This document shows, in pieces, positions 2,556 through 36,490 of a stretch of DNA of 38,481 nucleotides. Position 1 is the first letter of the stretch. Each line of letters starts with the position of its first letter. The stretch is from a virus. Location of the stretch: positions 1 through 38,481 of IMG/VR virus record IMGVR_UViG_3300029258_001219. One strand, given 5' to 3'. Below the pieces are notes generated by a model, which saw only the letters and a list, made by a program, of their open reading frames with translations, searched no databases and was not told where the DNA came from. The translations under genes were made by a program, and so were the position numbers.

Positions 2556-3519
2556 CACCGTACACCTCTGCGGTCAGCTCCGCAAAATCACTCTGCCCGT
2601 CATCCTTGAGTGCTTCGCGGTAGATGGCGGCGGCCTCGGCGGGCGCTTTGGGGTGCAGTGGATAGTCGCCGCTGTCGTCTTTCTCCTGCTGTGCCAGCAG
2701 CCACTTGAGATACCCGTCGGCGTGGCCCTTGGTCATCTCGCCTGTGCTGGTGATGCCCGACAGCCACCACATCACCTTGTACCGCTTGGCCTTGGCGTCC
2801 TTATCGCCTGAGAAGCATTCCTCTAGCTTGCTGGCGATCAAGCCGCGCTGTGCATCACTAGCCAAGTCTTTCTTGCCGTTCTCCACGATCTTGGCGATGT
2901 GGTCCTTGATGAACTCCGGGGCCATTGGGCGCTGCCCGTTGCTCTTGGCCGGGGTCGGCGTCGGCCTGGGCGTGTCGTGGAACTGTCCCTCGATGACGTT
3001 GCCCTCGCCGTCCGTCTCCGCGCCGAGTTCCTCCGGCGTGTAGGTGGGGCTGCCGCCAAACGCATCGGGGCAGTACCAGCGCACGCCGTTGGACATCGCA
3101 CGCGCAAAGAGCATGTTGCGCGGATACTTGCGCCAGTTATCGCCAGAGAGTCCGGCCTTGTCAGCGTCATCAAGCGTAAAGGTAGACGTGCCGACAATCT
3201 CTCCGTTCTGATAGAACACAATCGAGCAAATCTCTGCGTCGTGCTTGGCAACCCGGTAGTCGTAGCGCGGATCGCGCTTGACGGTGGTCGCCATCAGGTT
3301 GGCCCCCAGCGACACCTGACCCTTGATGATGCTGATCCCGGTCATCGATGCGATGGGGCCGAGGCCCAGTTCACGACCCGCCAGAATCTTGACGACAGCC
3401 TGAGCCGCTTGTTTGGCGTCGGAGAAGAACCCCGACTTGGCGAGCGTGTCGCCCAAGGTCATCGTCTCTTGTAGGGTCATCTCGTTACGAACGGGTACTA
3501 GGGCGTTGTTCTCACTCAT
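2548..3519 (-). CDS. recT: RecT-family single-strand annealing protein
   Basis: This is a 323-residue protein. The N-terminal 150 residues carry the RecT-type pattern: a helix with AAQAVVKILAGRELGLGPIA, then ISIIKGQVSLGANLMA, and further on FTLDDADKAGL and WRKYPRNMLFARAMSNG. These features typify phage recombinases that coat single strands and pair complementary DNA during recombination-dependent replication. The C-terminal third is a variable tail. The ATG at 3519 has AAAGGAG upstream; the longer frame lacks one. The partner exonuclease usual for RecT is not adjacent, though a PD-(D/E)XK-type protein lies at 32438-32770. Confidence 0.8.
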   Translation of the reverse strand: MSENNALVPVRNEMTLQETMTLGDTLAKSGFFSDAKQAAQAVVKILAGRELGLGPIASMTGISIIKGQVSLGANLMATTVKRDPRYDYRVAKHDAEICSIVFYQNGEIVGTSTFTLDDADKAGLSGDNWRKYPRNMLFARAMSNGVRWYCPDAFGGSPTYTPEELGAETDGEGNVIEGQFHDTPRPTPTPAKSNGQRPMAPEFIKDHIAKIVENGKKDLASDAQRGLIASKLEECFSGDKDAKAKRYKVMWWLSGITSTGEMTKGHADGYLKWLLAQQEKDDSGDYPLHPKAPAEAAAIYREALKDDGQSDFAELTAEVYGDE

Positions 3520-8023: not shown

Positions 8024-8725
8024 TCACGGTGACTCTATCCGCACCACAATCGGCCCACCGTCCGGCCCCGTCACCTCGACGCGCTGCACCTCTGGCGACG
8101 GGCCGGGCTGCTCGCCCTCCGCGTACTGCTCCAGGCGGAACACGTCGTAATGCCCCGCGCCAAAGCCCGGATCGTCCACGTTGAACTGCACGACCAGCCG
8201 CACAAACCCTTCGGTGGGGATGATCTCTGGCGCGTCAAGCCGCACCCACTTCCGATCCGGTAGCGCCTCCGCGCCGTAGGTGCCCTGCCAGCCGCCCCAC
8301 ACGACGCTGCCCTCGATGGTGCCGCGCTCCATCGGGTCGCGGGCGTTGCTGCCGACGAACACGCCATCGCCGTCCACCAGGCCCAGGCGCGCCCCGCCGT
8401 TGGCGTTGGCAAAGACGTGCATGTACATCGCGCTGCCCCGCACCGCTCGCCCGCACTGCACGTAGATGCGGTTCGTGACCAGCCAGTAGGTGCCCGTGCA
8501 GCTCAGGTAGAAGCCGTTGGCGCTGAATCGGCCCTCGTACACCTCTGGGTGGCCGGCTTGGCGGTCCTTGGCGTCCATCTCCGGGCGGTTGAGTTCCGCC
8601 GGGTTGGAGGCGTCGTGCAGCCAAAAGACCTGCATCCCCTTGGGGATGGTCACCTCCGGTACACCGTGCTGGTCGTAGAAGCCGTCCTCACATCGGTTGA
8701 CGTACTGCTCGCGCCACGTGCCCAT
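8024..8725 (-). CDS. Putative virion-associated or receptor-binding protein
   Basis: This is a 233-residue protein. Beta-rich composition, many aromatic residues and Gly (FSANGFYLSCTGTYWLV, ARLGLVDGDGVFVG, VVWGGWQGTYG) suggest a jelly-roll carbohydrate-binding fold. The C-terminus is a short extended tail (VRRVEV-like EVQRVEVTGPDGGPIVVR). AGGAG precedes the ATG. It is the last gene of the late operon, next to the lysin gene, so a host-surface or glycan-binding function is plausible but not shown. Confidence 0.6.
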   Translation of the reverse strand: MGTWREQYVNRCEDGFYDQHGVPEVTIPKGMQVFWLHDASNPAELNRPEMDAKDRQAGHPEVYEGRFSANGFYLSCTGTYWLVTNRIYVQCGRAVRGSAMYMHVFANANGGARLGLVDGDGVFVGSNARDPMERGTIEGSVVWGGWQGTYGAEALPDRKWVRLDAPEIIPTEGFVRLVVQFNVDDPGFGAGHYDVFRLEQYAEGEQPGPSPEVQRVEVTGPDGGPIVVRIESP

Positions 8726-9253: not shown

Positions 9254-9431
9254 CGTCACACTCCGTCTCGGCCTGTTCCATCATCGCCCGCACCCGCGCC
9301 TCGGCGATGCGGTCACGGATCGCGCTGTCCACCAGCGCCAGCGCACGCAGCGCCGTGGCATCGTCCAGCCCGTCGCTGACGGCGAACTGCACCGCGCCGC
9401 CTGCCCCGATCTGCACCGTCATGATGTGCAT
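9246..9431 (-). CDS. Hypothetical small protein
   Basis: This is a 61-residue protein starting MHIMTVQIGAGGAVQFAV, with AAGGAGGACGG directly before the ATG. The N-terminal half is beta-like and the second half helical (ALALVDSAIRDRIAEARVRAMM). It lies between the fibre and lysin genes and overlaps the lysin start. It may be a fibre chaperone or a small structural protein; unknown. Confidence 0.65.
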   Translation of the reverse strand: MHIMTVQIGAGGAVQFAVSDGLDDATALRALALVDSAIRDRIAEARVRAMMEQAETECDDG

Positions 9432-17656: not shown

Positions 17657-18537
17657 CGTCGGCCCCGGAACAGGTAGCGGCGCCCACTGGGCCATTCGGG
17701 CCGGGTGTCAAAGTCCACGAACGTGCCCGCCGCCTTGACTGGCGCGGCCTCCGCTCCCGTCTCCAGCCCGACGACATCGCGGTACTCGGCGCAGTATTCG
17801 TCCGCCCGGCGTGCGTAGGTATCCGACTTGGTCTGATGTGCGGCGGCGTCGGCGGCCACGGTGCTGTCGCTGATCTGGGCGTAGCTCGTCGCTATCACCC
17901 GGCACGCGCCACACGCCGCCAGGAAGCAGACGCCGAAAAAGTGCGCTGGCGGGATGTCCACGTACAGCGCCTGATAGGAGAAGTTGTCGCTGTCCGTGAC
18001 CGTCGAGACGATGTGCGTGGCCTTGTAGTCGTCGGCGCTGACGGTGGTGAACGTGCCGCTGTCCAGATAGCCCAAGTCGCCCACGCTGAACCCGTGCCCG
18101 GTGTCGTTGACCGCCGTCTCCGAGCCGCCGCCCGCCCAGGCGTAGGGCTTGGTGTAGCGGATGCGCATCGTCTCCGTCGCGGCGGGCGCGTGGTTGGGCA
18201 GGTACAGGTAGCGCACGTCCGCCGCCCAGAAATCATCGCGCCAGTCCTCCGGGTCGAGGTAGACGGGCGCCTCGTCGCTGGCCACCGTCGCCGCCGGGTA
18301 CTCGATGGACACGATGCGGCTGAACCCCTCCGTCCAGTTGTCGAGGCTGGTCGAGAGGGCGTAGTACTGGCCCGCGTCGCCGCTCACGTCGTCGTATTCC
18401 TCGTCCGGGAAGTCGGCGCTGTACTGCTCGACCGCCGCCCGCACGGCGCGGTTGCACTGCTCGTCGGTCAGCTCGGTATCGTAGTCGGGAATGAGCGACT
18501 GTGTTTGTGTCCGAAACGTTGCCAGTGCGATGGTCAT
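17653..18537 (-). CDS. Head-tail connector-type protein
   Basis: This is a 294-residue protein. The N-terminal region (LTDEQCNRAVRAAVEQYSADFP) looks like the helical start of connector proteins. The middle has a beta-rich insert (SETAVNDTGHGFSVGDLGYL, TTVSADDYKATHIV), and the C-terminal part is helical (HQTKSDTYARRADEYCAEY). GAGG is near the ATG. Being upstream of the gp10-like gene, it is probably the portal-side adaptor. Longer than usual for the class. Confidence 0.6.
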   Translation of the reverse strand: MTIALATFRTQTQSLIPDYDTELTDEQCNRAVRAAVEQYSADFPDEEYDDVSGDAGQYYALSTSLDNWTEGFSRIVSIEYPAATVASDEAPVYLDPEDWRDDFWAADVRYLYLPNHAPAATETMRIRYTKPYAWAGGGSETAVNDTGHGFSVGDLGYLDSGTFTTVSADDYKATHIVSTVTDSDNFSYQALYVDIPPAHFFGVCFLAACGACRVIATSYAQISDSTVAADAAAHQTKSDTYARRADEYCAEYRDVVGLETGAEAAPVKAAGTFVDFDTRPEWPSGRRYLFRGRR

Positions 18538-36051: not shown

Positions 36052-36323
36052 CCCCGCGCCTCCTCTGGCGCGACGTTGTACAGAATCTCAACATCGCAGT
36101 AGCCGCCGCGCTTCCTGTAGTGGGCCAGTGTTGCCGCAACGTCAAAGTCGCCCATTTCCTCCAGCACGTAGCGCGAATAGCGGTAGTCGTTGTACGCGCG
36201 CCGGGTAGCCAGCCAGCGCGCCAGGCGCACGCGGAACTCTCGAAAGCGGGGATGGTCTGTGGTGAGGATCTCGCCCTCGTTGCCTTTGAACAGCTCGCCC
36301 AGGTACGTCCGTAGTTCTTCCAT
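36048..36323 (-). CDS. Hypothetical protein, first gene after the leader RNA
   Basis: This is a 91-residue protein starting MEELRTYLGELFKGNEGEIL with GGGAGG six bases upstream. Helical with many Arg and Tyr residues (FRVRLARWLATRRAYNDYRYS). The longer in-frame extension into the leader is rejected for lack of a ribosome site. It lies downstream of the leader terminator, so its expression should depend on read-through. Function unknown. Confidence 0.65.
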   Translation of the reverse strand: MEELRTYLGELFKGNEGEILTTDHPRFREFRVRLARWLATRRAYNDYRYSRYVLEEMGDFDVAATLAHYRKRGGYCDVEILYNVAPEEARG

Positions 36324-36344: not shown

Positions 36345-36411
36345 AAAAAACCGCAACCTACATGCGGACACCTGTCATCGCCAGAATCGAGGCGGGCGCA
36401 GTAAGTTGCGG
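36345..36411 (-). terminator. Intrinsic terminator in the leader
   Basis: An 11-bp stem, CCGCAACTTAC (36411-36401) with GTAGGTTGCGG (36361-36351), one G-U pair and a 39-base loop, is followed at once by TTTTTT (36350-36345). The loop includes the 3' strand of the long leader helix, which gives the attenuator geometry. Confidence 0.65.
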
Positions 36412-36490
36412 CTCTTTGCTCACAAGCCATGTATGCGATTGTGAAGGGGTGCCCGCAAAAAAGACACCCGCTCCCGATTCTGGCGATTCG
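36345..36490 (-). ncRNA. Structured leader RNA, candidate attenuator or phage small RNA
   Basis: From the promoter at 36497-36525 the transcript should begin near 36490. Its first part, 36487-36464, pairs with 36377-36399 in a helix of 23 pairs, including 13 perfect at the outer end, one bulged A and three G-U pairs. Inside this helix is a hairpin (36446-36439 with 36425-36419). Immediately after that, 36411-36401 can pair with 36361-36351 to give a terminator stem followed by six U. The two long stems interleave and are unlikely to coexist, so one may control the other. Confidence 0.65.

Follow-up and report, generated by a model that had tools for sequence, protein, structure and literature searches.

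The window, a stretch of 38,481 nucleotides (positions 1 to 38,481 of IMG/VR virus record IMGVR_UViG_3300029258_001219), carries on its minus strand a leader followed by three genes, and all window coordinates below refer to that strand. The first gene after the leader (36323–36048, ATG at 36323) is preceded by the ribosome-binding site GGGAGG (36334–36329) and encodes 91 amino acids with weak similarity to DUF2695, below the Pfam cut-off. The second encodes an HNH endonuclease (36051–35473), and the third is the replication gene, encoding a DnaD-like helicase loader or replisome organizer (35472–34657; phrog_1701, phrog_6251). The HNH gene lies between leader and replication gene in the window, whereas the leader abuts the replication gene in two related loci (L010 and L002); a mobile endonuclease gene seems to have been inserted there. 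No close DNA relatives of the window were found among named phages, and a match to the 91-residue gene (L003) was discarded as not a real homologous locus.

The leader begins with a sigma-70-type promoter (36525–36497) composed of a −35 element TTGACG (36525–36520), a 17-nt spacer and a −10 element TATGAT (36502–36497). This promoter scores 10/12, has an extended −10 (TG before the −10) and gives p = 0.02 in the sense direction; a strong promoter occupies the same position in most homologous leaders. Transcription is predicted to start near 36490, placing segment a (ATCGCCAGAATCGGG, 36487–36473) at the 5′ end of the RNA, followed by segment b (GCGGGTGT, 36471–36464). Their partners, b′ (GCGCCCGCC, 36399–36391) and a′ (CTCGATTCTGGCGAT, 36391–36377), lie within the loop of a second stem, P2. 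The resulting helix, P1 (36487–36464 with 36399–36377), contains 23 pairs with a longest unbroken run of 13, and an exact search of IMG/VR for its sequence returned no match. An inner hairpin, CTTCACAA/TTGTGAG (36446–36439 with 36425–36419), was recognized from sequence and fold. P2 is formed by c (CCGCAACTTAC, 36411–36401) and c′ (GTAGGTTGCGG, 36361–36351), with the U6 tail of an intrinsic terminator (T6 in DNA, 36350–36345) directly 3′ of c′. The initial annotation had listed the promoter, the 5′ complement to the terminator loop, the wide-loop terminator, its U6 tail and the inner hairpin, and our analysis places all of them at the same positions.

Folding of the leader and competition between its stems

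Folded as the initial annotation had proposed, the window RNA reaches −68.4 kcal/mol, far stronger than its shuffles (z = −4.6; 0/200 equally stable), with a second state nearly equal in free energy at −66.3 kcal/mol. P2 can be extended upward to pair 36419–36390 with 36373–36343 (28 pairs), and because the upper half of this extended stem overlaps b′, P1 and P2 compete not only for space but also for bases. The rivalry of the two stems that had been anticipated is thus borne out, and it goes beyond space alone. A full H-type pseudoknot containing P1 and P2 together was considered and is unlikely where the strands overlap or adjoin; the gap between P1 and P2 strands is −2 to 0 nt in L002, L017, L045 and L047.

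Each of 14 leaders was folded twice, once with a′ just made and once at full length. With the RNA ending just after a′, the pairing probability of P1 was ~1 in 14/14; at full length P1 fell to 0 and P2 formed instead in 13/14. The window is the exception, with P1 predicted to be slightly stabler than P2, opposite to the 13 other leaders. The two stems exclude each other in this folding model, and an alternative-stem switch is well supported. The modeled RNAs contain the components expected of an intrinsic-terminator attenuator, namely an early alternative stem opposed to a terminator, a U-tract and a downstream gene. P1 would be ready before polymerase reaches the U-tract and be displaced within roughly 10–30 nt, which is the situation of a kinetic attenuator. 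We infer that P1 is the ON state and that transcription would actually terminate at the U-tract.

Recurrence of the pairing order in other phages

The comparison set was defined by homologues of the window DnaD-like protein. L002 and L010 were reached through that protein (45–64% identical), 33 viral loci matched a degenerate DNA pattern built on the KLLFIYLFSNE segment of the protein, and a second pattern gave 13 more. One further viral scan added nothing new; in genome_contigs, protein alignment found no relatives and the DNA pattern found three loci, all without a leader. L010 and L002 have a promoter, a P1 helix whose 3′ strand lies within the loop of P2, a terminator and the DnaD-like ATG in direct succession, in letters unrelated to the window leader. 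In total, ~16 phages with DnaD-like genes have, in unrelated sequence, a leader of the same order, placed ahead of the gene or of the operon that contains it: promoter, a, b, c, b′, a′, c′, usually a U-tract, and the gene, commonly with a small hairpin between c and b′.

The leader is found upstream of L026, L029/L031, L035, L038, L039, L045, L047, L048/L054 and L049, and also in L046, L027 and L036, where one or more genes are inserted between leader and DnaD-like gene, as in the window. The order a-b-c-b′-a′-c′ is seen in L010, L002, L026, L029, L035, L045, L046, L027 and L036; P1 is one continuous helix, in an otherwise identical order, in L039, L047, L048 and L049; and L012 and L017 are weaker cases. 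The initial annotation had read the region as attenuator geometry before a replication operon and had suggested a comparison with homologues of differing sequence. These homologues keep the order of the pairing elements with unrelated letters, which supports the attenuator reading.

A U-tract is absent in three leaders (L038, L017 and L012), so control there may be translational. Upstream of the gene start at 991 in L017 the P2 loop holds an anti-SD (CCCTCCTT versus AAGGAGGG), as it does upstream of 6714 in L038 (CCCTGT versus ACAGGG), and the two sequences suggest a translational version of the switch. A textbook element on the minus strand of L028 (terminator near 9382; 16-bp P1, 13-bp P2, U-tract) shows that the class extends beyond DnaD-like operons: the gene that it precedes encodes a Zn-finger protein and is located ~4 kb downstream of the DnaD-like gene. 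A candidate near 18492 on the minus strand of L088 (record G016), a genome that already has one leader, combines GCCTTGTAA/TTACAAGGC, a P2 with a T-tract and the promoter TTGGTA-17-TATAAT, and is possibly the second leader of that genome.

Several loci were set aside. No leader was found upstream in the DnaD-type phages Geobacillus E2 and PK3.6, deep-sea D6E, Psychrobacillus PVJ1, Exiguobacterium vB_EalM-137, Tenacibaculum JQ, Oenococcus, Stenotrophomonas, Bacillus 268TH008 and Streptococcus Javan271. L018 was dropped because a −10 is located between a and c. The related phages L033 and L032 have upstream of the DnaD-like gene a long, significant palindrome and, after it, the GC-rich terminator GCAGCCG..CGGTTTTTT; they lack P1 and seem to represent a different element. 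L002 contains a repeated gene-junction motif, CTTGACAACCGAGGAGAAATAATG (stop, SD, start), in several near-copies at 3166, 4207, 4352 and 4790, the last of which also serves as the −35 of the leader promoter.

Both stems were assessed statistically. The P2 test, which scored helices that enclose 15 nt or more and end no further than 60 nt from the gene start, was clearly bimodal, with 13 loci at p <= 0.03 and the others ordinary. The blinded P1 test paired the P2 loop with the 90 nt that precede P2, took the best ungapped helix or chain of two such helices, and compared it with dinucleotide shuffles of the upstream part. Ungapped or two-segment chains replaced rankings by a lenient-gap helix finder and duplexfold, which were uninformative because long gapped pairings swamp short helices. 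The P1 test set was chosen solely on P2 (z >= 2.5; n = 17 once near-identical copies had been discarded), and the pairing of a/b with b′/a′ in these 17 loci gave a Fisher combined p of 1.8e-7, with modest per-locus values, some lineages that may share ancestry, and two P2 calls (L060 and L033) that are probably false and were kept in. The 29 relatives without a significant P2 hairpin gave p = 0.89. The proven seqA/CI pairing of P4 scores p = 0.036 in the same test, so the p values of individual leaders match the strength of a real system.

A scan of 0.55 Mb of leader-bearing genomes on both strands yielded 186 wide-loop terminator-like hairpins, among which the lowest P1 values belong mostly to replication leaders, ~1 per genome, with L028 as one exception. 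Leaders found by the scan gave p = 0.001 (L028) and p = 0.007 (L036 and L027), values that are scan-selected and so not independent.

The same comparison bears on the trigger of the switch. The remark in the initial annotation that the leader resembles no known riboswitch holds, in that an Rfam search of the window and related leaders matched no riboswitch class. A small-molecule riboswitch would account for the leader position and the competing stems, but the leaders are unrelated in primary sequence, and none of them contains a conserved sequence or matches an Rfam model; as no sequence is conserved, a ligand aptamer is not indicated, and we regard this explanation as hardly conceivable.

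Proposed control by the terminated RNA, and alternatives

The leader probably serves the replication operon as a CI/C4-like attenuator, compact and self-terminating, in which the terminated RNA would brake the next transcripts. RNA polymerase would start near 36490, and b′/a′, once made, would pair with a/b to form P1, the putative read-through state, holding the terminator arm c in the loop. If P1 were absent or displaced in time, c would pair with c′ to form P2, stopping transcription at about 36345 and releasing an RNA of about 145 nt with b′/a′ in its P2 loop and a/b in its 5′ tail. The released RNA itself would be the simplest regulator that requires nothing further: its loop would bind a/b of the next nascent transcript, blocking P1 and leading to termination. 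Expression of the replication genes would drop as the RNA, and hence phage copies, build up, and the brake would extend to any incoming phage that shares the RNA type. In the predicted terminated state, a/b and a′/b′ are open (mean unpaired 0.68 and 0.65, respectively, versus 0.39 for the whole RNA), so the terminated RNA could reach the a/b of another nascent RNA. Because masking a/b removes P1, termination is expected, a negative feedback loop for which no further gene is required.

This action in trans, which we infer, is the point on which a cis-only explanation differs. The folding results, with P1 early and P2 at full length, would suffice for an attenuator or timer acting only in cis. 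In that case P1 and P2 of a single transcript would be rivals, the choice between them would depend on how fast polymerase moves, on antitermination of the polymerase, or on a protein of phage or host, and the released RNA would be waste. The search of leader-bearing records, which revealed no repressor gene, is also consistent with this explanation. However, no protein-site or other motif is common to the leaders, and RNA–RNA specificity would better account for a/b and a′/b′ that change fast while the layout stays constant, and for a terminated RNA whose loop and tail are open. P4, of the same layout, works in trans (PMC4825925). A cis-only mode is rather unlikely in our assessment.

A pairing partner might alternatively be supplied by a separate RNA. 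In the plasmids pT181 and pIP501, a pre-emptor stem competes with a terminator before the replication-initiator gene, and the antisense RNA comes from the opposite strand. A countertranscript of this type could mask a/b here by the same logic, but antisense promoters across 14 leaders were not above chance, with one borderline, and none was detected across the window leader (p = 0.70), unlike in the plasmid systems; sense promoters reach p <= 0.03 in 9/14 leaders. The segment a′, moreover, already gives the complement on the same strand, and a separate countertranscript appears very improbable.

Alternatively, the RNA of ~145 nt could itself be the functional product, either a stable small RNA or a primer or R-loop RNA for the phage origin, with read-through into the replication operon incidental. 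The terminator and the very stable fold would agree with such a role, as would the predicted final fold of the window RNA (P1 plus a short 3′ stem) and DnaA-box-like sites that immediately precede the L012 and L035 promoters. These sites, TTATCCACA, are beside the leader promoter and fall in the 210 nt ahead of the replication gene, and on sequence grounds a phage origin may lie near the leader in these two loci. Against such a product, neither a second copy of a/b nor other complementarity above chance was found elsewhere in the sequence searched, and in most loci P2 is closely tied to the start of the next gene, a link that a stand-alone RNA does not need. We consider this role improbable.

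The gene content of the records touches on the lifestyle of these phages. None of 18 leader-bearing records has a match to tyrosine integrase, resolvase or HTH_3, and none has ParA above cut-off. The 25 relatives set down as leaderless include 8 with an integrase and 7 with an HTH_3 match (5 above cut-off). Two of the 25, L027 and L036, were later shown to be leader-bearing; neither has an integrase, and L027 has only a sub-threshold HTH_3 match. This is suggestive only, the records being often fragments and partly related, of leader-bearing phages that dispense with a classical protein repressor. It fits phages that are either virulent, metering replication or excluding superinfection, or temperate and using RNA; given the lack of integrase and HTH_3 they may be virulent, and "immunity" of the lysogeny type may not apply.

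Under the favored reading of a trans-acting terminated RNA, CI/C4-like control apparently exists in a form that is widespread and absent from Rfam; because only the order of the pairing segments is kept, it is invisible to sequence-based RNA family searches. The literature searched contained work on P4, IsrK and C4 and no description of this leader class. Tentatively, the leaders may represent a widespread undescribed class of self-contained, RNA-only elements for replication control and superinfection exclusion, ~1 per genome, in phages without a recognizable integrase or HTH_3 repressor, with rapidly diversifying a/b-a′/b′ immunity types, a counterpart of P4 CI and P1 c4 built as a single self-terminating leader. 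If so, P4/P1-type logic would be spread over very different phages in minimal form, and replication metering or self-exclusion would be explained in phages without a recognizable repressor. A simple rule would then find such elements, which would provide small reprogrammable attenuators with base-pairing specificity.

Comparison with P4 CI/C4 and IsrK

RNA-based phage immunity is established for a few phages and satellites (P4 and P1/P7), in addition to Gifsy IsrK. The closest known system is P4 CI with seqA and seqC (Rfam C4 RF01695, isrK RF01394; P1/P7 c4), a likeness absent from the initial annotation and recognized in this follow-up. According to published work cited through PMC4825925 and PMC10111431, the CI RNA pairs with seqA and seqC, and transcription of the P4 replication genes is thereby terminated. 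The P4 minus strand reads GUGAGAA (8669), UUCACAGG (8651), an isrK-type terminator, the C4 stem (8502–8486), CCUGUGAA (8463), UUCUCAC (8449), a stem at 8441–8425 and second copies of both targets. The leaders share with P4 the order a-b ... c-b′-a′-c′, bipartite pairing of a/b with loop-borne b′/a′ under c/c′, an upstream promoter and a replication operon, which in P4 is controlled by transcription termination (PMC4825925; PMC10111431).

Differences are also apparent. In these leaders, unlike P4, c/c′ is itself the terminator and lies directly before the gene; a/b is near the 5′ end of the RNA, with no isrK-type terminator between b and c; a downstream seqC copy is generally absent; and the phages that bear them carry DnaD-like rather than P4-alpha replication genes. 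A test for a downstream second target (seqC, a2-b2) gave p = 0.002 for P4 and p = 0.35 for the window, and only L017 was individually strong; the combined p over the leaders, 0.014, comes mainly from L017, whose loop complements the SD. The C4 model (RF01695), which scores 74.9 bits on P4, found no match in the window, whether the threshold was the gathering score or E<5, and none at gathering score in 12 related loci. The leaders do have the C4 feature of a c/c′ stem enclosing, in its loop, the b′ and a′ partners of a-b segments located upstream.

The Gifsy-1 IsrK leader gives a short terminated RNA and a read-through mRNA through two alternative structures, and the short RNA acts on its own mRNA, activating antirepressor translation (PMC4825925). 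The present leaders resemble IsrK in having two alternative structures predicted to yield a short terminated RNA and a read-through mRNA, and differ from it in that the gene concerned is a replication gene and the predicted effect negative. The best reading of these comparisons is that the leaders would work like CI/C4 but outside that Rfam family, fitting a P4-like order into about 70–150 nt.
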